A stretch of DNA of 64,000 bases from Corynebacterium lubricantis DSM 45231 (GTDB taxonomy: Bacteria > Actinomycetota > Actinomycetes > Mycobacteriales > Mycobacteriaceae), in the NCBI RefSeq assembly GCF_000379425.1, contig NZ_KB902181.1, positions 186,001 through 250,000 of the forward strand, read 5' to 3'. A model generated the notes under the pieces. That model was not told the DNA's origin, ran no database searches, and saw nothing but the letters and a program-made list of their open reading frames with translations. The position numbers and the translations under genes are program-made. Of this stretch, positions 3,754-22,707 are shown piece after piece. Within the stretch, counting starts at the first letter, position 1. Each line of letters starts with the position of its first letter.

Positions 3754-5019
3754 CTATTGGCGTTGGGCCCTTCGATCGTCAAGACGCTCTGCAACGCTTT
3801 TTGCGAACTCGGAGACGACTGTGTACCTCGTCGCACGACCGTTGGCCGCGTAGCGTGACAGCGCTTCAAACGTCTCGTACAAGTCACGTCGAATCATCAG
3901 TTCCTCCTCGGAGAAGCCACCCGATTCGGCCGGCCGGAGCAGCTCGCCGGTGTGTTCCATTTGCAACGTCGATTCATGGTTGACACCGAGATAATCAATC
4001 TCAGTCTCGCTCAGATCCAAAGTTTGTTGCGCCCTGTCGCTATAGACCAACGTGCGAGATAGCGAGCCGTAATACATCAGCGTCACGCTTGAAAGGGCCC
4101 AGCCGATTAAGGCCGTGGTGATGGATTCATGCAGGACATCTTCGTTGAGAATGCTTGGCCAGACCCCGGAGATCTCACGAGACCACGCCTCGACGAATGC
4201 CTCTGCTTCATCGTCGGAGATCGGACGGTTGGACAGGTACTGCGGAAATCCGCCGACGACGCAGGCAAGATCGAAGGAGACATCGCGGAAGCCGGCCCAC
4301 TCGTAGTCCAGAAAAATGGTGCGTTCGGCGACAATGATGTTGTCTGGGGACAAGTCAAAGGGAGTAAAGGCGCGGAACTGTCCATGCAGAATCCTGTCTT
4401 GGATCCGCGGGACTTCCTTCGCTACAGCTGCAGGTACTTCGAATCCTGATTTTTCTAATACCTCAAGGCCTGACTCCATGCCGAAGTCCAATAACCGCTC
4501 TCGCAGATCCTGCATTCCCTTCGCGTCGCCCTGATTGCGCAGCATGCGGGAGAGCAAGATGTTAAACGCATCTTCTTTTCCTGCGGTGCCAGAATGCATC
4601 TTGCCCAGAGACGTGCCCAGATTGCGGAGGATCTGAATTCTCTTTTCCGGATCCGATTCCGCAAGGAGATCAGCAAAAGTATCACCGTCTCCGCTATCGG
4701 AGATGACAAGGAGACGCTGATCAAAGTCATGTGCCAAAAGCACTGGTCCCGGGCGCACTTCTTCGGCGAGGGACGTAGTGAACTGATAAGACACTACTTC
4801 TCGCATAAATGCGGCATCTTCGACCTTATCGCCCGTGATGGGTGAATGCTTGAGTACCACCGTGCGATGAGGCAAGAAGGGATTGTTCGCGACGCGTGCG
4901 CGGGACACATTGGCGTTGCCTGATCCGCTCAGCGGAGTTACATCGTGGAGCTTTTGCCCGCCGCCGTAGCGTCGAGTCAAAAGGTCTTCAGCGACATTAA
5001 CTATTTCTTCCTGATCCAA
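3754..5019 (-). CDS. APH/choline-kinase-fold phosphotransferase, substrate unknown
   Basis: A 421-residue protein kinase-like (aminoglycoside phosphotransferase/choline kinase) fold. An ATP-lysine strand is seen as VVLKHSP; the catalytic loop is PFDLSPDNI (D, then four residues, then N) and the metal site is LDYEW. The usual loop histidine (HxDxxxxN) is replaced by phenylalanine, while the catalytic Asp and Asn are kept. I start it at TTG 5019 because AAGGAG lies 6 nt upstream; a GTG/ATG-type extension of 22 residues to 5085 has no ribosome site and runs into the aspS terminator. No partner genes indicate the substrate. Family placement is firm, function is not. Confidence 0.8.
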
Positions 5020-5083
5020 AGCATTTCTCCTTATCTCTCCACCATTGTGCCCTACCCGTAGAAAGTATGTTTGTAGAACACAC

Positions 5084-5127
5084 AAAAACCTCCCAGCCGT
5101 ACTCGAACCTTCAAGTAGCTGGGAGGT
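5084..5127 (-). terminator. Rho-independent terminator of aspS
   Basis: Inverted arms ACCTCCCAGC (5088-5097) and GCTGGGAGGT (5118-5127) form a 10-bp stem. On the minus strand it is followed by TTTTTGTGTG. It lies 30 nt past the aspS stop codon. Confidence 0.9.
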
Positions 5128-5157: not shown

Positions 5158-6960
5158 CTACTTAGCCGCAGCGGCTTCTACTTCTTCCTTGGATGGCTTG
5201 TAATCCACACCCGTCTCCTTGCGCTGCTCTGGCGAGATTGCACCAGGCGCATCCGTCAAAGGATCGACACCGCCACCGGACTTCGGGAACGCGATGACGT
5301 CGCGGATGGAATCAAAACCACCGAGCAGCGAGACAATACGGTCCCAACCGAAAGCAATACCGCCGTGAGGTGGTGCGCCGTAGGCGAAAGCGTCGAGCAG
5401 GAAGCCGAACTTTTCGCGAGCTTCTTCCTCACCGATACCCATGACGTCGAATACGCGCTCCTGCACGTCGCGGTTATGGATACGGATGGAGCCGCCGCCG
5501 ATCTCGTTGCCGTTGCAGACAATGTCGTAGGCGTACGCGAGTGCCTCGCCTGGTTCTTTGTCGAAGGAATCCATGAACTCTGGCTTCGGCGAGGTAAATG
5601 CGTGGTGCACAGCGGTCCACTTCGAGTGGCCCAAGGCCACGTCACCGGAAGCAGTGGCATCTGCTGCTGGCTCGAACATTGGGGCGTCGACGACCCAGGT
5701 AAATGCCCAGTCGCCGTCCTTGATCAGGCCGAGCTTCTCAGCGATAGCGCCACGTGCAGCACCCAGCAACGCGCGGGAGCTCTTGGTCTCGCCAGCTGCG
5801 AAGAAGATGCAGTCGCCTGGGTTTGCGCCAACGTGCTCAGCGATGCCTGCGCGCTCAGCTTCGGTGATGTTCTTCGCCACTGGGCCAGTCAGCTCGCCGT
5901 CTTCGCCCACGAGGATGTAGGCAAGGCCCTTTGCTCCACGCTGCTTTGCCCACTCCTGCCAGGCGTCGAGCTGGCGACGAGGCTGGCTTGCGCCACCTTC
6001 CATGACTACTGCGCCGACGTACTCGTTCTGGAACACGCGGAAAGTGGTGTCCTTGAAGTACTCGGTGCACTCGACCAATTCGATGTCGAAGCGCAGGTCC
6101 GGCTTGTCGGAGCCGTACTTCTCCATTGCTTCTTTGTAGGTAATGCGTGGGATTGGGGTGGAGATTTCGTAACCGATCAGCTTCCACACATCGGTCAAGA
6201 TTTCTTCAGCAACCTGGATCACATCGTCTTGGTCAACGAAGCTCATCTCAACGTCGAGCTGGGTGAACTCTGGTTGTCGGTCGGCGCGGAAGTCCTCGTC
6301 GCGGTAGCAACGAGCGATCTGGTAGTAACGCTCCATGCCTGCCACCATGAGCAGCTGCTTGAACAGCTGTGGCGACTGAGGCAGTGCGTACCAGGAGCCT
6401 GGACGCAGACGAGCTGGGACGAGGAAGTCGCGGGCGCCCTCTGGGGTGGAACGCGTCAGCGTTGGAGTCTCGATCTCGGTGAAATCGTGGCGGTCCAAAA
6501 CGTTGCGTGCTGCGCGGTTTGCTGCGGAACGCAGGCGCAGGGCTTCCGCCTGACGGTCGCGGCGCAGGTCGAGGTAGCGATACTTCAGGCGTGTCTCTTC
6601 GCCGACTTCGTTGTTGGAAGCATCTTCGATCTGGAACGGCAGTGCAGCCGACTTGTTCAGAACGGTCAATTCAGTAACGTTGACTTCGATTTCGCCGGAT
6701 GCCAGGTTGGGGTTCTCGGAACCTTCTGGACGTGGTTCGACAATGCCGGTGACCTGAATGCAGTACTCGCTGCGGAGATCGTGCGCCGCCTCTGCCACTG
6801 CAGATTCACGGAAAACTACCTGCGCGAGACCAGTCCGGTCACGCAAATCGATGAAGATCACACCGCCGTGATCACGGCGACGAGCGACCCAACCAGTCAA
6901 GGTGACAGACTGGCCAGCAATGTCTTTGCGGAGATCTCCCGCGAGGTGAGTGCGCAGCAC
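5158..6960 (-). CDS. aspS: Aspartyl-tRNA synthetase
   Basis: Class II synthetase attaching aspartate to tRNA-Asp. In bacteria lacking AsnRS this enzyme is often non-discriminating and also makes Asp-tRNA-Asn for GatCAB; whether that holds here cannot be seen. About 600 residues: OB-fold anticodon domain ([19 protein letters not shown]), class II core ([34 protein letters not shown]), bacterial GAD insertion and final [10 protein letters not shown] motif. Two GTG starts are possible. I prefer 6960 because it gives the family N-terminus MLRTHLAG; GTG 6972 adds four residues but lies only about 1 nt from the GGAAGGA ribosome site. Divergent from the zinc peptidase gene. Confidence 0.96.
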
Positions 6961-7098
6961 GGTTTCTTGCACGTCCTTCCACGTGTTGGATGTTGAACTT
7001 CGAAAAGTCTACCCCCTTGGGTAAGAAGTTTGCGCTCTCACCCCTATTTTTCAGCTGCATACCGGTATATGACGCAAATTGCATGGCATGATATGCCC

Positions 7099-7995
7099 AT
7101 GACTTTCAAAGGCGATATTCAGAAGTCCGGCAATCGCGCCCGGACGGGTGGCGGCGGACGCACCGGTTCTGTCGTCGCAGGCGGCGGCATCGGCGGCCTG
7201 CTCATCATTGGACTCTTCTTGCTTCTTGGCGGGAATCCCGGCGACATCGGTCAAATCACCGGTGGTGGCCAAGCCCAACAACAACAACCCGCAGATCCCG
7301 CACAAGATCCGGGTCTGGCACACTGTCAAACTGGTGATGACGCGAACCAGTACGCGGACTGCCGCGTCGAATTCACCGCAATATCCCTCGATCAAATGTG
7401 GACAGAGGTTCTCCCCCAGCAGGCAGGCCTTGAGTACCGCGAACCTGGACTTGTCGTCTTCGAAGACGCCACCCAGTCGGGTTGCGGTTATGCATCCGCC
7501 AATACTGGCCCGTTCTACTGCGGTGGCGATCAAAGTGCCTACTTCGACGTCAGCTTCTTCAACCAACTAGAACAGCTCGGTGGCGAGAACGCTCCACTAG
7601 CGCAGATGTATATTGTCGCCCACGAATTTGGCCACCATATCCAATACATCGAAGGCACCCTCGACCTGATCGACTACAACAACCCGGGCGAGGATTCCAC
7701 CGCTGTTCTTCTCGAGCTGCAGGCTGACTGCTACGCAGGTATGTGGGTTAACCGAGCCGACGAGGGCCAGGACGCAATGCTGCAAACCGTCACTCCAGAG
7801 CAGGTTGAATCCGCCATCAACACGGCACGCGCGGTCGGCGACGATAATATCCAGCGTCGCTCCACCGGCGAAGTCCAGCCTGACCTGTGGACGCATGGTT
7901 CCTCCGAGCAGCGTCAAGAGGCATTCCTGCGGGGCTACAACAGTGGCAACATGTCTTCCTGCGACTACCTCAACACCGGTAACTACGCCGCTTAA
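7099..7995 (+). CDS. Membrane-anchored neutral zinc metallopeptidase (YpfJ/KPN_02809 family)
   Basis: About 298 residues. A short cytoplasmic, Gly/Arg-rich N-terminus is followed by one transmembrane segment (GGLLIIGLFLLLGG, near residues 32-47) and an extracytoplasmic domain. The zinc site is AHEFGHHIQ, with a downstream glutamate region ELQADCYAGMW, both typical of the Zn_peptidase family PF04228. Cysteines in the outer domain could form disulfides. ATG 7099 is chosen; ATG 7093 is two codons longer. The physiological substrate of this family is not known. It converges on the SNF2 gene with only 9 nt between stop codons. Confidence 0.85.
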   Translation: MTFKGDIQKSGNRARTGGGGRTGSVVAGGGIGGLLIIGLFLLLGGNPGDIGQITGGGQAQQQQPADPAQDPGLAHCQTGDDANQYADCRVEFTAISLDQMWTEVLPQQAGLEYREPGLVVFEDATQSGCGYASANTGPFYCGGDQSAYFDVSFFNQLEQLGGENAPLAQMYIVAHEFGHHIQYIEGTLDLIDYNNPGEDSTAVLLELQADCYAGMWVNRADEGQDAMLQTVTPEQVESAINTARAVGDDNIQRRSTGEVQPDLWTHGSSEQRQEAFLRGYNSGNMSSCDYLNTGNYAA

Positions 7996-8004
7996 GCTCA
8001 ACTA

Positions 8005-10680
8005 CTAGTCCACAAAACCAAGCCGCTTCCGCTCGATCTTCATGATCTCAGCGGCTAGGTGCGCCTCGGAAATGTCAACGGCATCGTGGGTTGAGGCGCT
8101 TTCCGAAGGCCGGGCGTAGACGTCGAAGATCTCTTGCTTGCCCGCGAGCATTTCGGTGAGTCGCTCGTCGACGGTGTCCTCCCCGATTAGCCGGTGAACA
8201 AGGACTGTGGAGGTTTGGCCCATCCGGTGCACACGGGCAATGGCCTGCGCTTCAATTGACGGCTTCAGCTGCGGTTCCACCAGAATCACCACGGAAGCCG
8301 ACTGGATGTTTAGCCCCGTTCCACCTGCGGTGATCTGTGCGACGAGGACGCTCCCAGGCACAGCATTACCTAATTCGTCGATCATCTCTTGTCGCCGTGG
8401 AACGGGCACGGAGCCGTTTATTTCTCCGACCACGCGGTCGCCAAGTGCCGCGGTAATAGATGCCAGAACTTCGCGGAAGTAGGAAAATATCAGCACGTTC
8501 CGTCCTGCCTCGCCGGCCTCGTCGACAAGTTCTTTAATGCGTTCCATCTTTGCCGGCTCGCTGCTGAGAGTGGTCATGGCAGCGCGGCGCATCCCCATAA
8601 AATTGGAATCTTCCACCGCACGCTCGTAATCCTGACGGTCCGCCGAGGTCAGTTCAATCCAGTCGGTTTGTTCGAGCTTCTCCGGCAATTCATCAAGCAC
8701 ATCCGATTGGTTGCGGCGCAGGTAGGCGGGTGCGACGCGAACACGGAAATTGGCGGCGTTCATCGATTCCATTCCGCGGGTGATCAGCTCGGGGGCGACG
8801 TAACTGATCAGCTGGGCGAATTCTTCGACACGATTTTCCAGCGGCGTACCCGTCATCAGCAGGGCATGCGGTGCTGCGTCGATGATTGCGCGCACGGCCT
8901 GGGTACGCGCCGCGGCGGGATTCTTAATGAAGTGCGCCTCATCGACGACAAGCAAGTCGGGTACCGCAACTTCGGTGATCCCCATGGTGCGCGCCCCGTC
9001 GAAAGTGACCACGCAAATGCCACCTTCGCTCGCCCAGGCGCGTAGTTGGTCCTCTTTGTCGGTACCGTGAGCAGCAAAAACAGGCAGGTCAGTAAAAAGC
9101 TTCGCCTCGCGAACCCAATTCGGTAGCACCGATGCCGGGCTGACCACAAGGGTGCGGCTTTTGCCCTGCGCCGCCAAATGCGCCGCGGCGGCTAAAGCTT
9201 GGACGGTTTTGCCCAACCCCATCTCGTCGCCAAGCACGACCTTTTCTTGCACGAGCGCGAAACGCGCACCGAAGGATTGGTAGCCACGCAGATGCAGATC
9301 GGTTAGGTGCGTATCGTCCAGGCGCAGCGCGCGGATTCGGTCGAGGACATCGCCGGCGAGATCGTCGCCTCCCTCGATCTCGCGGCCCAGCAGCGTGGCC
9401 AGCAGTCCCTGGTAGTGCGCGGGGCGGGTGAGATAGTCCTCCCAGGTGTTGTCGCCGACGGCGACGAAACGCGCGGGCTCGAGCAGCCCCGGTTGTGCCG
9501 CACCCCAGGCGATATCATCGTTGAAATTGCGCCAGGCCAGCGGTTCCTCCGACGTCGTGGCCACGACCCATTCCTCGCCCGCGCTATAAAACGGGATTTG
9601 CTCGGCATAGGAAATCAACCGGCGGCGCCGCTCCACATCATGCGGGCCCAGCTTCTCAATCTGATCAAAGGTGGCCAAAACTCGCACCAGGCGCGTCGCT
9701 GCTGCCGTCGCGGTGTCGCCGATGCGCGTCGAGGAGGGGTCCTCCGCCTCGTTCTTCAGCGTCTGCGCGGCCGCCTTCATCCGGCGGGCGGTCTGCTCGC
9801 CGATGCCGTTGATCCCTGTCAAGTCGCTAATCGACGATTCAAGCACCTGCTTCACCGTGGTAATGCCGGAAGCCTCCAGCCCCTGAAACCGCAGCCGCTC
9901 GTTGGTAACGCTGCGCAAAGCATCGACGGGGAGTTGTGCTAGCAAGATTTCGGCACGGTCACGTGCGAGTTCGGCCAGCGCAGATTCTGCTTGACGACGA
10001 AGGTCTGGTTCCGAGCCCGGCGCGTTGTTGAGTTCCCACGCTTTGGAGAGCACAAAGCGAATTTGAGTCGGGTCGACCTGTTGGAAGTGGAGCTCACCTC
10101 CGGTTCCAATGGTCTTTTGTAAGGCGCGCTTGGCCCCGTGCAGGTACGTCTCGGGCGTGCCGTGGGGACCGGGGAGAAGGTGCACGCCTGTTGATTCCTG
10201 CAAGCGTGTTGCCTGGTCGAGGCGGCCCAAAATTGTGTCCACGTCGCGTGTTAAGGCTTGAAAGCTCCCTTCCGAGAGCCGTCGCGAAAGTGCGCGGGCG
10301 GCCTCTTGTGCTTCCTGGAGCTTGCGTCCGCCGAATAGGCGTCCGAAAAATCCCGGCGCGGCGTCGCGGGCTTGCGTGGCTAGTTGCGGGATTCCGTCCA
10401 AGCGCTGGGGGTAGGCCGCGAGCTTGTCTGCGGCATCTGGCAGCGATTCGAGTTCCGCGAAGGCATAGAGCCCGGGTGGCCAACTCATTTCGCTGGGGAT
10501 AATCAGGTAGGCGGTCTGACCGTCTGCGTCCTCCGTGAGATAGGTCATCTTGGAGTTGGGCACGTCCTGGGCGCCGGAGCGTTCGATGAGGGTGAGCAGG
10601 CTGCGGAGGGCAGAAATCCGGGAGAGGTGTGCGTCGTTAGCGCTGAGTAGCTGGTCTAGTTCTTCCCGGGACACTGGCAT
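8005..10680 (-). CDS. SNF2-family DEAD/DEAH ATPase with N-terminal HhH region
   Basis: An 891-residue DNA-translocase-type ATPase. Residues 1-270 match no domain I recognise. A helix-hairpin-helix DNA-binding stretch (LTGINGIGEQTARR) lies near 287-300. The SNF2 motor follows: Walker A GDEMGLGKT (484-492), DEAH (580-583), motif III MTGTPLEN (609-616) and motif VI AIARVHRMGQ (813-822). The start ATG 10680 begins MPVSREEL and has no ribosome site, but TAGGCT lies 8 nt upstream. Longer upstream reading would overlap the divergent gene. The single-chain layout resembles bacterial SNF2 (RapA/HepA-like) proteins rather than restriction enzymes. Function is unknown; see the divergent HEPN-CBS gene. 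Confidence 0.88.
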   Translation of the reverse strand: MPVSREELDQLLSANDAHLSRISALRSLLTLIERSGAQDVPNSKMTYLTEDADGQTAYLIIPSEMSWPPGLYAFAELESLPDAADKLAAYPQRLDGIPQLATQARDAAPGFFGRLFGGRKLQEAQEAARALSRRLSEGSFQALTRDVDTILGRLDQATRLQESTGVHLLPGPHGTPETYLHGAKRALQKTIGTGGELHFQQVDPTQIRFVLSKAWELNNAPGSEPDLRRQAESALAELARDRAEILLAQLPVDALRSVTNERLRFQGLEASGITTVKQVLESSISDLTGINGIGEQTARRMKAAAQTLKNEAEDPSSTRIGDTATAAATRLVRVLATFDQIEKLGPHDVERRRRLISYAEQIPFYSAGEEWVVATTSEEPLAWRNFNDDIAWGAAQPGLLEPARFVAVGDNTWEDYLTRPAHYQGLLATLLGREIEGGDDLAGDVLDRIRALRLDDTHLTDLHLRGYQSFGARFALVQEKVVLGDEMGLGKTVQALAAAAHLAAQGKSRTLVVSPASVLPNWVREAKLFTDLPVFAAHGTDKEDQLRAWASEGGICVVTFDGARTMGITEVAVPDLLVVDEAHFIKNPAAARTQAVRAIIDAAPHALLMTGTPLENRVEEFAQLISYVAPELITRGMESMNAANFRVRVAPAYLRRNQSDVLDELPEKLEQTDWIELTSADRQDYERAVEDSNFMGMRRAAMTTLSSEPAKMERIKELVDEAGEAGRNVLIFSYFREVLASITAALGDRVVGEINGSVPVPRRQEMIDELGNAVPGSVLVAQITAGGTGLNIQSASVVILVEPQLKPSIEAQAIARVHRMGQTSTVLVHRLIGEDTVDERLTEMLAGKQEIFDVYARPSESASTHDAVDISEAHLAAEIMKIERKRLGFVD

Positions 10681-10688
10681 GGAAAAAC

Positions 10689-10694
10689 AGCCTA
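10689..10694 (-). promoter_or_regulatory. -10 box for the SNF2 gene
   Basis: TAGGCT on the minus strand, 8 nt before the SNF2 ATG at 10680. It overlaps by two bases the plus-strand -10 box TACACT (10693-10698) of the neighbouring gene, so the two promoters face away from each other and share the same DNA. Confidence 0.5.
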
Positions 10695-10698
10695 CACT
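10693..10698 (+). promoter_or_regulatory. -10 box for the HEPN-CBS gene
   Basis: TACACT ends exactly 7 nt before ATG 10706, with no ribosome site between, which fits leaderless transcription. Confidence 0.55.
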
Positions 10699-10705
10699 TG
10701 AGACG

Positions 10706-11434
10706 ATGAACAGTTCAGATAATCGCGCGACAGCCTTTCTTGCCGCATTCAATGACATCGAGGACCATCTCCGGGTACAACTCGGGGCGAAAAAATCTGA
10801 CAGCTTCCGCTGGATGGTGGACCAGGCGAAGCGGCGCCACGTGTTATCAGAAACCCACGCCGAGGACCTCAAGGAATTCGCGGAGCTCCGCAATGCGATC
10901 TCGCATGGTCGCTATACCAAGGACCTGCGCCCGATTGCCGAGCCGCTGCCCGAAGCAGTGGAGCACATCGAGAGAATCCGGGACCTGCTCCAGCATCCTC
11001 CCCTTGCCCTGGAGGTGTTGGGCTCGCACCAGAAGATTTATACGTTTGCCCCAGATGACGATATTCACGACGTGCTCCGCATCATCAAGAACACCGAGAT
11101 TAGTCAGTTCCCTGTGTACAAGGAAGGTCGTGCCGTTGACCTGCTAACCACGAACACCGTCGCCCGCTGGGTAGCCGCCGATTTAGACGACAACGATCAT
11201 TTGGATGCGCGCTCGGTTGCCGAGGTGTTGGACTATGCCGAAAGCAACGACCGTGCAGTATTCCTGCCCAAGGATGCGACGGCACAGGAAGCTTTAGATG
11301 CCATGGTGATTCCGGATGGCAAGCGTGGTCTGCCTCGTGCAGCGGTGATCACCGAGCATGGGTTGGACACGCAGAAGCCTCTTCGCGTTGTAGGCGGATC
11401 GGACGTTGTCGCACTTCGCAACGCCCTTCAGTAG
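10706..11434 (+). CDS. HEPN-like N-terminal domain plus CBS-pair protein
   Basis: A 242-residue soluble protein. Residues 1-95 look all-helical and contain ELRNAISHGRY, in which R62-N63-x3-H67 matches the Rx4-6H signature of HEPN domains (often RNases or nucleotidyl-binding partners). Residues 100-242 look like a pair of CBS domains (SQFPVYKEGRAVDLLT; LPRAAVITEHG), which usually bind adenine nucleotides. HEPN assignment rests on one motif plus helical character and is moderate; the CBS part is firmer. ATG 10706 is chosen because the predicted -10 box is 7 nt upstream; only 25 bp separate it from the divergent SNF2 start, so the two genes are likely co-regulated. Confidence 0.75.
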   Translation: MNSSDNRATAFLAAFNDIEDHLRVQLGAKKSDSFRWMVDQAKRRHVLSETHAEDLKEFAELRNAISHGRYTKDLRPIAEPLPEAVEHIERIRDLLQHPPLALEVLGSHQKIYTFAPDDDIHDVLRIIKNTEISQFPVYKEGRAVDLLTTNTVARWVAADLDDNDHLDARSVAEVLDYAESNDRAVFLPKDATAQEALDAMVIPDGKRGLPRAAVITEHGLDTQKPLRVVGGSDVVALRNALQ

Positions 11435-11483
11435 TCATTCCGGTATCCAGTTCAAAAACCGCGCAACACTCCGGGAATAGATA

Positions 11484-11508
11484 AACTTTAAAGTTGTTGA
11501 CATGTCAA
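11484..11508. promoter_or_regulatory. Twin palindromes in the monooxygenase promoter
   Basis: Two perfect 12-bp palindromes lie end to end: AACTTTAAAGTT (11484-11495) and TTGACATGTCAA (11497-11508). The second overlaps a -35-like TTGACA, 44 nt before the LLM monooxygenase start. Such placement suggests a repressor or activator site, for example of a MarR-type dimer. The regulator is not in the window. Confidence 0.5.
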
Positions 11509-11551
11509 ATAGGCTAGTTACAGAACATCACAACCAGAAGGAATGAGATAA

Positions 11552-12670
11552 ATGCAGTTTGGCATCTTTACCATCGGCGACGTCACCACCGACCCGACAA
11601 CAGGCAAAACTCCGACCGAGCACGAGCGCATCAATGCAATGACTGCTATCGCTCTCAAGGCGGAGGAAGTAGGCCTCGACGTTTTCGCTACAGGTGAGCA
11701 CCACAACCCACCGTTTGTGCCTTCGGCGCCTACCACCCACCTGGCTTATATCGCGGCAAAGACGGAGAAGATTCAGCTCTCTACGTCGACGACGCTGATT
11801 ACTACTACCGACCCCGTGCGTATCGCCGAGGATTACGCCTTCCTGCAGCACCTCTCCGGTGGCCGGATGGATCTCATGATGGGCCGCGGTAACACCGGTC
11901 CTGTCTACCCTTGGTTCGGCAAGGACATCCGCGAGGGCATCCCACTAGCCGTAGAGAACTACCACCTGCTGCGCCGGCTGTGGCGCGAAGAGGTAGTCAA
12001 CTGGGAGGGCAAGTACCGCACTCCGCTGAACGGCTTTACTTCTACCCCAGCTCCACTCGATGGTGTCCCACCGTTCGTATGGCACGGCTCGATTCGCTCC
12101 CCACAGATCGCGGAGCAGGCTGCCTTCTACGGTGACGGCTTCTTCCACAACAACATCTTCTGGAACAAGGAACACACCGCACAGATGGTGAAGATCTACC
12201 GCGAGCGTTACGCGGCTTACGGTCACGGACAGGCAGACCAGGCCATCGTCGGCCTTGGCGGCCAGGTTTACATGGCAGAGACCGAAGAACAGGCCAAGAA
12301 GGAGTTCCGCCCGTACTTCGACAACGCCCCTGTGTATGGCCACGGCCCAAGCATGGAGGAGTTCACCGAATTGACCCCGCTGACTGTGGGTACCGTAGAG
12401 CAGGTGATCGACCGGACCATGCAGTTCGCTGACTGGGTCGGTGACTACCAGCGCCAGCTCTTCCTGATGGATCACGCCGGCCTTCCACTCGAGGTCGTGC
12501 TCAATCAGATCGAGATCCTGGGCACCCAGGTCGTTCCAGAGCTGCGCAAGCGAATGGAAGCACGCCGCCCTGACCACGTGCCTTCCGATCCTCCAACCTT
12601 CGCAACGCTGCGCGAAAACCGCGACGCACCACACTTCAAGGTCAACCCAGGCGAGGCAGGTACCAAGTAA
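11552..12670 (+). CDS. LLM-class FMN-dependent monooxygenase (CE1758-type)
   Basis: A 372-residue luciferase-like (bacterial luciferase/F420 superfamily) flavin enzyme. Visible features are the N-terminal beta strand MQFGIFTIGD, ATGEHHNPPF, LSTSTTLITTTDPVRIAEDY and the flavin-phosphate region GGRMDLMMGRGN. The sequence resembles the putative CE1758 subfamily known from Corynebacterium; the substrate is unknown. Ribosome site AAGGAATGAG lies before ATG 11552. The stop codon overlaps the start of the next gene (TAATG), which encodes the matching FMN reductase, so the two are translationally coupled as a two-component monooxygenase. Confidence 0.9.
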   Translation: MQFGIFTIGDVTTDPTTGKTPTEHERINAMTAIALKAEEVGLDVFATGEHHNPPFVPSAPTTHLAYIAAKTEKIQLSTSTTLITTTDPVRIAEDYAFLQHLSGGRMDLMMGRGNTGPVYPWFGKDIREGIPLAVENYHLLRRLWREEVVNWEGKYRTPLNGFTSTPAPLDGVPPFVWHGSIRSPQIAEQAAFYGDGFFHNNIFWNKEHTAQMVKIYRERYAAYGHGQADQAIVGLGGQVYMAETEEQAKKEFRPYFDNAPVYGHGPSMEEFTELTPLTVGTVEQVIDRTMQFADWVGDYQRQLFLMDHAGLPLEVVLNQIEILGTQVVPELRKRMEARRPDHVPSDPPTFATLRENRDAPHFKVNPGEAGTK

Positions 12671-13344
12671 TGAATACCGTCACCGTCATTTCCGCAGGAC
12701 TGTCCATCCCGTCAACGACGCGCCAGATCGCGGATGCAGTCTCGCAGCGCGTTGAGGCAGCCGTCTCCGCTCGCGGCGAGTCCGTCAAGATCCAAAACAT
12801 CGAGCTGCGCGGCTACGTCAACGACATCGCCCAGGTCTTTACCACGGGCTTTTCATCGGAGCGTCTCGACGAGATCAAAACCCAGGTCAGCGAGTCAGAC
12901 GGGTTGATCGTGGTCACCCCAGTATTTAAGGCAAGCTACTCCGGGCTGTTCAAGATGTTCTTCGACGCCTTAGATACCGAGGCGCTCAACGGGATGCCCA
13001 CTATCATTGCCGCCACTGCAGGCACTGCGCGTCACTCTCTCGTCACCGAGTACGCAATGCGCCCACTATTTACCTACATGAGGGCCGTCGTCGTCCCAAC
13101 CTCCTTGTTCGCAGCCACCGAGGACTTCGGTGGCGAAGAAGGAAAGGCCTTCGAACAGCGCGCCTCGCGTGCCGCGGGAGAACTAGCGGATCTTATTGTC
13201 TCGCAGAATTCCGCAGTGGGCGGACTCGGCGGTGCCACGGCTGAGGGCCAGGGCACCCACCGTCGTCGTAAAGCGGGCGTTGATTTGGAAGAGGACATGG
13301 TGCCTTTCGCCGAACTGCTCAAAGACCACGACGGTAACGGCTAG
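12670..13344 (+). CDS. NAD(P)H-dependent FMN reductase, partner of the LLM monooxygenase (CE1759-type)
   Basis: A 224-residue flavodoxin-fold reductase of the NADPH-dependent FMN reductase family. The N-terminal AGLSIPSTTRQIADAV has the phosphate-binding loop, and VTPVFKASYSGLFKMFFD is the family's flavin-contact segment. It would supply reduced FMN to the preceding monooxygenase. The last 40 residues are charged and look disordered (HRRRKAGVDLEEDM). Its start overlaps the stop of the monooxygenase gene by one base. The cupin gene follows 38 nt later, probably in the same transcript. Confidence 0.88.
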   Translation: MNTVTVISAGLSIPSTTRQIADAVSQRVEAAVSARGESVKIQNIELRGYVNDIAQVFTTGFSSERLDEIKTQVSESDGLIVVTPVFKASYSGLFKMFFDALDTEALNGMPTIIAATAGTARHSLVTEYAMRPLFTYMRAVVVPTSLFAATEDFGGEEGKAFEQRASRAAGELADLIVSQNSAVGGLGGATAEGQGTHRRRKAGVDLEEDMVPFAELLKDHDGNG

Positions 13345-21405: not shown

Positions 21406-22707
21406 TTACTCCGAAAGGGCCGACCTCAGTGCCGTAACTACTTGATCAAGCGCAACCGGCTGCTGCGTCTGATCTGCCATGTTCTTCACCGAGACCTCGC
21501 CGGCCTCCAATTCCTGGTCACCGAGTACCAGCGCAAATGAAGCACCTGCGCGGTCCGCTCCCTTCATGGCACCCTTGAGTCCGCGGTCGCCGTAGACCAT
21601 GTCGGCGGAGATACCGGCGGCGCGGAGCTCGTCGATAAGCAAAGCCATGCGACGCTTTGCCGCGCCGCCGAGCGCGACCCCGTAGACGTCGACGCGACGG
21701 TCGACTCCGTCGAGGACGACGCCTTCCGCCTCGAGGGCGAGCACGGTGCGGTCAACGCCGAGGCCGTAGCCGATGCCGGAGAGGTCTTGGCCACCGATTT
21801 GTGCCATCAGGCCGTCGTAGCGACCGCCGCCACCAATGCCGGACTGGGCACCGAGGCCGTCATGGACAAATTCGAAGGTGGTCTTGGTGTAGTAATCAAG
21901 GCCGCGAACCATGCGCGGATTGATCACGTACGGCACACCCATGTCGTCGAGGGTGCCCGTGACAGTTTCGAAGTGTGCCCGCGTGTGGTCGTCGAGGTGA
22001 TCAAGCATAAGTGGCGCATCGGCGGTCATCTCTTGGACCTCGGGGCGCTTGTCGTCGAGGACGCGCAGCGGGTTGATCTCAGCGCGCTGGCGGGTTTCCT
22101 CGTCGAGAGGCAGCTTGAACAGGAACTCCTGCAGCTTCTCGCGGTAGGCTGGGCGGCAATTGTTATCGCCCAGGCTGGTCAGCTCGAGGCGGAAATCCTT
22201 CAGGCCCACGGCGCGGTAACTGCGGTCGGCCAGTGCGATGACCTCGGCGTCGAGCAGCGGATCGTCGACGCCAATAGCCTCAATACCGACCTGCTGCAGC
22301 TGGCGGTAACGGCCGGCCTGCGGGCGCTCGTAGCGGAAAAACGGACCGTAGTAATTCAGCTTCACCGGCAGGTAACCGCGATCGAGGTTGTGCTGGATCA
22401 CCGCACGCATCACACCCGCGGTGCCCTCCGGGCGCAGGGTGACGGAGCGCTCGCCGCGATCGGCGAAGGTGTACATTTCCTTGCTCACAACGTCGGTGGA
22501 CTCACCCACGCCGCGGGCAAACAAGGTGGTGTCCTCGAAAATCGGAAGCTCAATGTGCTGGTAGCCAGCCAAATGCGCCTGGCGAGCAAACTCGTCGCGG
22601 ACCCGAATAAAGGTCGCGGATTGTGGTGGCACATAATCGGGCACGCCCTTCGGGGCTGCCAGTGCCTTGAACTTCTCCGGGGATTTTCCAGTCTTGTTAG
22701 TACTCAC
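21406..22707 (-). CDS. hisS: Histidyl-tRNA synthetase
   Basis: Class II enzyme charging tRNA-His. The 433 residues show motif 2 [13 protein letters not shown] and [17 protein letters not shown], the histidine-specific loops [12 protein letters not shown] and [12 protein letters not shown], and the C-terminal anticodon-binding domain ([18 protein letters not shown]). Start is GTG 22707. There is no clear ribosome site, but TAAACT lies 8 nt upstream, beginning at the stop codon of the MBL hydrolase gene. Twelve nt separate the two genes. Confidence 0.96.

Follow-up and report, generated by a model that had tools for sequence, protein, structure and literature searches.

A HEPN-CBS fusion protein of Corynebacterium, a candidate nucleotide-gated ribonuclease resident in the aspS-hisS chromosomal slot

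The locus

The window analysed here is a stretch of 64,000 nucleotides of Corynebacterium lubricantis DSM 45231 (contig NZ_KB902181.1, positions 186,001 to 250,000; genome size 2.94 Mb). Our subject is a gene for a 242-residue protein at positions 10706-11434 of the window, on the forward strand and with an ATG start. According to domain searches and a structure model its product is a predicted HEPN domain fused to a pair of CBS domains, and we suggest that it may be a ribonuclease gated by an adenine nucleotide. A divergent gene, 25 bp away, encodes an SNF2-family ATPase of 891 residues (8005-10680, reverse strand), which we judge on its Pfam domains and its context to lie outside the HEPN-CBS system. 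The original prediction, made from the sequence alone, had described this pair correctly as far as the 25 bp distance, the coordinates, the lengths, the motif and its numbering are concerned. It had also proposed that the two proteins work together.

Domains and fold of the HEPN-CBS protein

The fusion of an R-N-x3-H motif to CBS domains is present as predicted. Pfam recognises CBS repeat 1 at residues 110-156 (34.4 bits, cut-off 24). The full-length structure model, built from 37 relatives, has a mean confidence (predicted local distance difference test, pLDDT) of 93.8 and consists of four helices (residues 7-26, 34-43, 49-67 and 82-96) followed by the CBS pair (about 98-242). The full-length fold search against the PDB showed CBS-containing chains among the matches listed, so the HEPN part, i.e. 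the first 96 residues, was modelled and searched alone. This model, made with 49 relatives, has a pLDDT of 89.3, and the four-helix bundle on which the earlier HEPN assignment depended is present in it.

The first 26 rows of the Foldseek search with the HEPN part were HEPN or HepT chains and 1wwp, each match being weak. On structural re-alignment the top 17 rows had Z scores from 9.9 to 6.7, and the rows after them fell below 6. These 17 rows comprise HepT/HEPN toxins, HI0074, AF_0298, YutE, MtlR, HepS and 1wwp; YutE, MtlR and 1wwp are proteins which we take to belong with HEPN. The bundle aligns with 1wwp at Z 9.9 (root mean square deviation, rmsd, 3.3 over 91 residues) and with 7bxo at Z 8.4 (rmsd 3.0 over 88 residues), values to be read with the caution that helical bundles reach middling Z scores by chance. 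A fold search of BFVD gave no match to the HEPN-CBS protein under E 0.001. The CBS pair aligns with 2rc3 at Z 13.3 (rmsd 2.8 over 124 residues), and the CBS-pair matches at Z 12-13 include AcuB with AMP, with ADP, with ADP and ATP, and with Ap4A.

Profile searches with the HEPN fragments of 49 relatives (Pfam, E<=0.1) matched HepT-like in 30, RiboL-PSP-HEPN in 24 and MAE_28990 in 9. The HEPN families that the original prediction would have us find are therefore seen in the relatives; in the window protein itself HepT-like stays under its cut-off. DUF4145 (PF13643), the family named alongside them, was matched by a single member of the 49 (E 0.075), the window protein not being that member, and this assignment was rejected.

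The predicted catalytic motif, R62-N63-A64-I65-S66-H67 (10889-10906, forward strand), lies at the end of helix 49-67 and agrees with the R-x4-6-H pattern of the HEPN superfamily. It is conspicuous that R62, N63 and H67 are invariant in every set that was aligned, i.e. in the 87 proteins of the fetched Corynebacterium loci (down to 28% identity), in the 49 relatives, and in 73 sequences chosen from several phyla for a cross-phylum alignment and tree, so that the conservation of R62 and H67 which had been asked for is complete. The most distant named pair of the cross-phylum set, the window protein and a second copy in a Corynebacterium genome (L116), is 25.5% identical. Judged from these sequences the RNxxxH motif is not a product of chance, and the model makes the designation of the 242-residue protein as a predicted HEPN protein well supported.

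Conserved positions are also found in the CBS part. Repeat 1 carries P136-V137-Y138 (11111-11119, forward strand); P136 is present in 73/73 sequences of the cross-phylum set and a Y or F occupies position 138 in 71/73. Repeat 2 carries D233 (11402-11404, forward strand), the Asp of a T/G-x-x-D motif, which is D in 68/73 of the same set and in 40/49 of the relatives. We take D233 to have a ribose-binding role, and by the rules for CBS sites the residue pattern presumably fits one nucleotide per protomer. The aromatic Y138 together with D233 probably marks an adenine-nucleotide site.

Distribution of the gene

The HEPN-CBS gene was found in 112 of 201 Corynebacterium genomes. There are 113 matches, none of them with an internal stop. 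Of these, 86 were either fetched or the window's own, and with the second copy of one genome (G136) they make up the 87 proteins mentioned above. In the wider lineage, 17 of 298 genomes of the order matched at E<=0.001, and in eight of these, the window's own among them, the matches span the HEPN part. At phylum level, with E<=1e-8, there were 6 matching genomes out of 396; they again include the window's own, and three of them match over the CBS part only. In the Bacilli 43 of 250 genomes had the gene at E<=1e-15, with 46 matches. Eight of the Bacilli matches were flagged as containing stops; their open frames turned out to be of full length (226-245 residues), and the reading of these eight as decayed genes was rejected. 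The lack of internal stops in Corynebacterium and the full-length frames in Bacilli indicate a resident gene that is kept intact. Of 198 genomes from the phylum of Flavisolibacter, the query genome itself was the only one with a match.

Plasmid-borne copies were seen in Rhodococcus, in Candidatus Chlorohelix and on C. glutamicum pBL90, the last one split into short frames. Matches labelled as Enterococcus and Listeria 'phage' are poor evidence of phage carriage: in one of them, an unverified wastewater clone named 'Enterococcus phage' (L236, OR846607.1), the sequence around HEPN-CBS looks by eye like bacterial chromosome.

The aspS-hisS slot

The order of genes in the Corynebacterium interval that can hold HEPN-CBS was read at 101 loci. 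On one side are aspS and a neutral zinc metallopeptidase; the other side is variable, with a luciferase-like monooxygenase, an FMN reductase and a serine dehydratase, and it ends in hisS. In the window these markers are aspS (5158-6972, reverse strand; Pfam tRNA-synt_2 and GAD, and synteny), the zinc metallopeptidase (7030-7995, forward; PF04228 and synteny) and hisS (21406-22707, reverse; PF13393 and synteny). The luciferase-like monooxygenase and the NADPH-dependent FMN reductase (11552-13344, forward; PF00296 and PF03358) often lie to the right of HEPN-CBS. At least one of the three markers was present in 84 of the 87 HEPN-CBS loci read. None was seen at L047, on a contig of 3.3 kb, at the rearranged locus L089, or at the second copy of G136 (L116). 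The slot may also house the SNF2 gene and an ABC/TetR cluster, both of them optional. In two genomes the slot is rearranged, with SNF2 on the far side of HEPN-CBS in G048 (L089) and beyond aspS in G180 (L113).

The predicted promoter of the HEPN-CBS gene

A script search found a -10 element, TACACT (10693-10698, forward strand), 7 nt before the ATG of HEPN-CBS. A TANNNT box 5-8 nt before the start is present in 64 of the 87 HEPN-CBS loci as compared to 2.4-2.6 in shuffled sequences. Among the other slot genes the same box was seen at aspS in 1/61, at the monooxygenase in 2/56, at the FMN reductase in 5/64, at sdaA in 26/53, at hisS in 52/69 and at a metallo-hydrolase in 53/69. A sigma-70 promoter scan of positions 10500-11600 found no promoter. 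In C. glutamicum the -10 element TAnnnT lies 3-11 nt before the transcription start and about 33% of the mRNAs are leaderless (PMC3890552, the parts available to us); given this spacing, the position of the box predicts a leaderless mRNA for HEPN-CBS. By this share, and by the similar box counts at hisS and the metallo-hydrolase, a leaderless start is ordinary in the genus.

The gap also holds a -10-like element of the SNF2 gene, TAGGCT (10689-10694, reverse strand; script search), 8 nt before its ATG. The two elements face each other on opposite strands and overlap by 2 bp, which could make the two promoters mutually exclusive. Both boxes are present in 4 of the 14 loci where the genes are directly adjacent, and SNF2 starts in general have the box in 7 of 18 cases.

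Non-resident copies and defence systems

Seven of the copies outside the resident slot are linked to defence genes, and this is a minimum count. In Flavisolibacter (L232) a single gene separates HEPN-CBS from the BREX genes PglZ and BrxL upstream of it. L116, the second copy of G136, has a full-length frame and is divergent from BREX PglW, PglZ, BrxD and BrxHI. HEPN-CBS lies near GmrSD enzymes in Planococcus (L227) and in Marmoricola (L221), in the latter near an integrase as well. On C. glutamicum pBL90 (L246) it adjoins SIR2 and HerA. In Bacilli, one copy (L297, genome G1123) is near DrmA and pAgo, i.e. in a DISARM/pAgo setting, and another (L306, genome G1016) is beside a type III restriction enzyme. 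The plasmid pGA2 (L238) has a methyltransferase and a restriction endonuclease annotated about 3 kb from a shortened HEPN-CBS copy. The pBL90 copy (6040-6651), in two short frames and probably decayed, is 72% identical to L116.

Four genomes have two copies each (G136, G971, G1016 and G1123). One of the two is defence-linked in G136, G1016 and G1123, and none was seen to be so in G971; the other copy occupies a resident slot in G136 and G1123. L297 and L306 are 86% identical even though they come from different genomes; their large neighbours differ and one family of 300-residue neighbours is common to both. The identity between L297 and the slot copy of its own genome is 38%. This looks like a recent transfer of an island-borne form. 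The defence-linked copies are scattered over the tree of 73 sequences.

The SNF2 neighbour

The SNF2 protein has the make-up described in the original prediction: Pfam matches HHH_5 at 268-306 (28.0 bits, cut-off 27), SNF2-rel_dom at 467-701 (110.7, cut-off 24.9) and Helicase_C at 711-821 (45.4, cut-off 23.5). Before residue 267 no Pfam family was matched at E<=1, and residues 1-270 had no solid match among the PDB sequences (best E 0.44).

SNF2 presence was scored at E<=1e-60. In the 201 Corynebacterium genomes both genes were present in 42, HEPN-CBS only in 70, SNF2 only in 20 and neither in 69. The corresponding odds ratio of 2.07 (Fisher p 0.03, without correction for descent) leans towards pairing. 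Within the 112 HEPN-CBS genomes the SNF2 gene is less than 350 bp away in 14, between 350 bp and 6 kb away in 23, and farther or on another contig in 5. The two genes are thus rarely direct neighbours (14/112), and the proposed conservation of the pair did not hold. SNF2 is absent from the fetched stretch in 52 of the 87 HEPN-CBS loci. Contig ends do not explain its absence, since 50 of these 52 loci still show aspS or the zinc peptidase. Conversely, at seven of the loci fetched the slot contains SNF2 but no HEPN-CBS. Among the 64 fetched HEPN-CBS loci outside the Corynebacterium slot there was one weak SNF2 match (L288, helicase part, 28% identity). In G154 the in-slot SNF2 (L051) is a two-piece match with an internal stop while HEPN-CBS is intact, a further sign that the two genes are not kept together.

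The pairwise identities of SNF2 and HEPN-CBS are correlated, the coefficient being 0.81 raw (33 loci) and 0.55 when the hisS distance is removed (26 loci). After the same removal the FMN reductase reaches 0.74, and eight other neighbours range from -0.02 to 0.37 (16 to 68 loci). We read the SNF2 correlation as linked inheritance. We conclude that the adjacency reflects slot sharing, with a small residual chance that the two proteins interact.

Comparison with known systems

DS-11 is a one-gene CBS+HEPN system of E. coli that blocks phage and needs both domains (DefensePredictor, Science 2026, PMC13092281). According to the parts of that report available to us, protection is lost in HEPN catalytic mutants and in Y157A, a mutant of the CBS adenine contact; the protein is predicted as a dimer with two ATP, and the ligand is still to be discovered according to its authors. 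Judged against that portion of the report, the two proteins have in common the HEPN and CBS domains in a single chain and an aromatic CBS residue, Y157 in DS-11 and the conserved Y138 in the window protein, for which we propose an adenine-stacking role by analogy. Unlike DS-11, the Corynebacterium copies are residents of a chromosomal slot. A tblastn search of plasmids with four HEPN-CBS family members gave no enterobacterial match.

HEPN-CBS and HEPN-CBS-HD fusions were noted by Anantharaman et al. 2013 (PMC3710099). The domain pair is the same there, and so is the idea that RNA stability is controlled through the sensing of nucleotides. Among the proteins named are alr3009 and one from Pelobacter, and the main text has no mention of Corynebacterium. 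Among the matches listed in searches of the literature on HEPN plus CBS, on defense and on Corynebacterium phages, there was no paper on the Corynebacterium gene. As far as the available parts of the two papers go, the fusion has been known since 2013 (PMC3710099) and its kind was validated in 2026 (PMC13092281), and the Corynebacterium protein is a new and widespread member.

The HepT toxins of HEPN-MNT (type VII) systems are among the nearest solved folds of the HEPN part (5yep, Z 8.3; 6m6w, 8.2; 7bxo, 8.4; 7ae2, 7.8), and they have the RNx3H motif in common with the window protein. The window bundle is shorter, aligning from about HepT residue 35 on, and it is fused to CBS domains instead of being accompanied by an antitoxin. 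Its score against the NCBIfam HepT model is 21.1 bits, below the cut-off of 60. No MNT nucleotidyltransferase was found by Pfam among the ten window neighbours scanned (one of them, the gene at 3754-5085, had no Pfam hit), and a HEPN-MNT toxin-antitoxin pair was rejected on this account.

The SNF2 protein was also compared with the motors of known defence systems. DpdE, DrmD and ZorD are SNF2 motors as well, and the PADLOC scores are high for one DpdE model (484 bits) and one DrmD model (457 bits). Against the NCBIfam equivalogs the protein is far under the cut-offs (DpdE 73.3/500; DrmD 59.6/610 and 63.1/950; ZorD 92.2/1500), and the Pfam scan of the ten window neighbours found no DISARM, Dpd or Zorya system. 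In spite of the PADLOC scores, DrmD of DISARM, DpdE of Dpd and ZorD of Zorya were therefore rejected as identities. PADLOC-like annotation may over-call Dpd or DISARM at this gene.

Proposed function and alternatives

We favour the reading, with a probability of roughly 0.58, that the protein is a single-gene, adenine-nucleotide-gated HEPN ribonuclease of the DS-11 kind, resident in Corynebacterium and answering phage infection or metabolic shock. The protein would most likely act as a homodimer, since the active site of HEPN proteins is built at the interface of two subunits and CBS pairs form dimers as well. The activity of the HEPN ribonuclease would be set by an adenine nucleotide bound in the fused CBS pair. 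While the cell is at rest, the two R-N-x3-H motifs would be kept separate or hidden, either by the bound nucleotide or by its absence. A shift in adenine nucleotides, brought about by an infecting phage or a similar metabolic shock, would let the two motifs meet, and the joined motifs would cut cellular or phage RNA, upon which growth would stop. In Corynebacterium the gene resides on the chromosome and has a predicted leaderless promoter to itself, some relatives elsewhere sit in anti-phage defence islands, and we take the SNF2 motor for a separate tenant of the same slot. What the computation shows is the predicted fold, the conservation of the motif and of the CBS site, the distribution and the context; the ribonuclease activity, the ligand, the sense in which the switch works and an anti-phage role in Corynebacterium are inferred. 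The predicted fold, the invariant RNxxxH motif, the conserved CBS residues and the experimentally tested DS-11 of E. coli speak for the nucleotide-gated nuclease of the original prediction, whereas the separate gain and loss of the two genes speaks against its work with a DNA translocase.

A number of observations weigh against the reading we favour. With respect to the domains, HepT-like scores 20.8 bits on the full-length window protein and 23.0 on the HEPN fragment (Pfam cut-off 23.5), and Foldseek gave no significant HEPN match to the HEPN part (best E 0.22). In CBS repeat 1, T148 is present and an Asp three residues on is found in 6 of 49 relatives, the window protein not being one of them. 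DS-11 was likened to the window protein by its published description, and the correspondence of Y157 and Y138 is a proposal. With respect to phage defence, 84 of the 87 fetched Corynebacterium loci are in the housekeeping slot and not in defence islands. At least 15 of the 40 fetched Bacilli loci share one of two lineage contexts, eight loci the one and seven the other, and further Bacilli loci looked like housekeeping ones by eye. The defence-linked neighbours come from seven loci picked for scanning as promising-looking, without a matched control. Two scans of viral_contigs confirmed no HEPN-CBS relative, and PHROGs had no HEPN-CBS match.

A first alternative is a housekeeping stress regulator. 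The same CBS-gated HEPN ribonuclease would then serve the cell's own energy or nucleotide stress, e.g. by turning over mRNA or tRNA under starvation, and only some of the island-borne relatives would act against phage. The fixed chromosomal slots, seen in Corynebacterium and in several lineages of Bacilli, the intactness of the resident gene (no stop in the 113 Corynebacterium matches, full-length frames in the eight Bacilli cases) and its own conserved promoter all fit this alternative; nevertheless, the presence of the gene is patchy within the genus as well as across the phylum, and the non-resident copies are found near defence systems repeatedly, so that we consider it a serious alternative, yet an unlikely one. 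A non-catalytic HEPN domain whose role is to bind either RNA or a partner protein, the CBS pair acting as a ligand switch, is less probable still. Not every protein of the HEPN fold is an enzyme, the structural neighbours include MtlR and HI0074, and the H-x-Y carried by HepT toxins is absent, there being H67-x-x-Y70 instead, with Y70 not kept in Bacilli. However, the motif is invariant in 73/73 sequences, which argues against a pure scaffold, as such a protein would not need R, N and H.

The idea of one divergent system made up of two genes, those of the SNF2 translocase and of HEPN-CBS, has some observations on its side, i.e. the direct adjacency in 14/112 genomes and a distance within 6 kb in 37/112, the overlapping -10 elements in 4/14 adjacent loci, the odds ratio and the identity correlation. 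Still, we regard it as very improbable: an SNF2 match is lacking in 70/112 HEPN-CBS genomes and HEPN-CBS in 20/62 SNF2 genomes, the slot persists in 50 of the 52 loci that lack SNF2, the loci outside the slot offer a single weak match, and the FMN reductase correlates more strongly with HEPN-CBS than SNF2 does. The SNF2 gene is accordingly removed from the hypothesis.

The ribonuclease reading that we prefer would mean that a just-validated type of CBS+HEPN anti-phage protein is carried by 112 of the 201 Corynebacterium genomes sampled and by 43 of the 250 from Bacilli. Most of the copies would be chromosomal residents, away from the defence islands in which one usually looks for genes of this sort. 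R62, N63, H67, Y138 and D233 are conserved residues from which a search for the adenine ligand can start. A more tentative proposal, which we hold to be doubtful, is that of an AMPK-like RNA-cutting sensor, i.e. a permanent, adenine-nucleotide-gated ribonuclease in Corynebacterium and several lineages of Bacilli that couples energy state to RNA decay in normal life and whose module was repeatedly recruited into defence islands. If this were true, a single protein family would serve as a phage alarm as well as a housekeeping checkpoint on energy.

Other observations

A gene for a 443-residue protein (3754-5085), situated between aspS and a RarA/MgsA-like gene, had no Pfam match at E<=1e-5 although it is frequent in the conserved interval around the slot. 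Elsewhere in the window genome, on contigs C8 and C20, three MZB-domain proteins lie near other SNF2-type matches (L003, L004, L006 and L248); these are possible defence loci.

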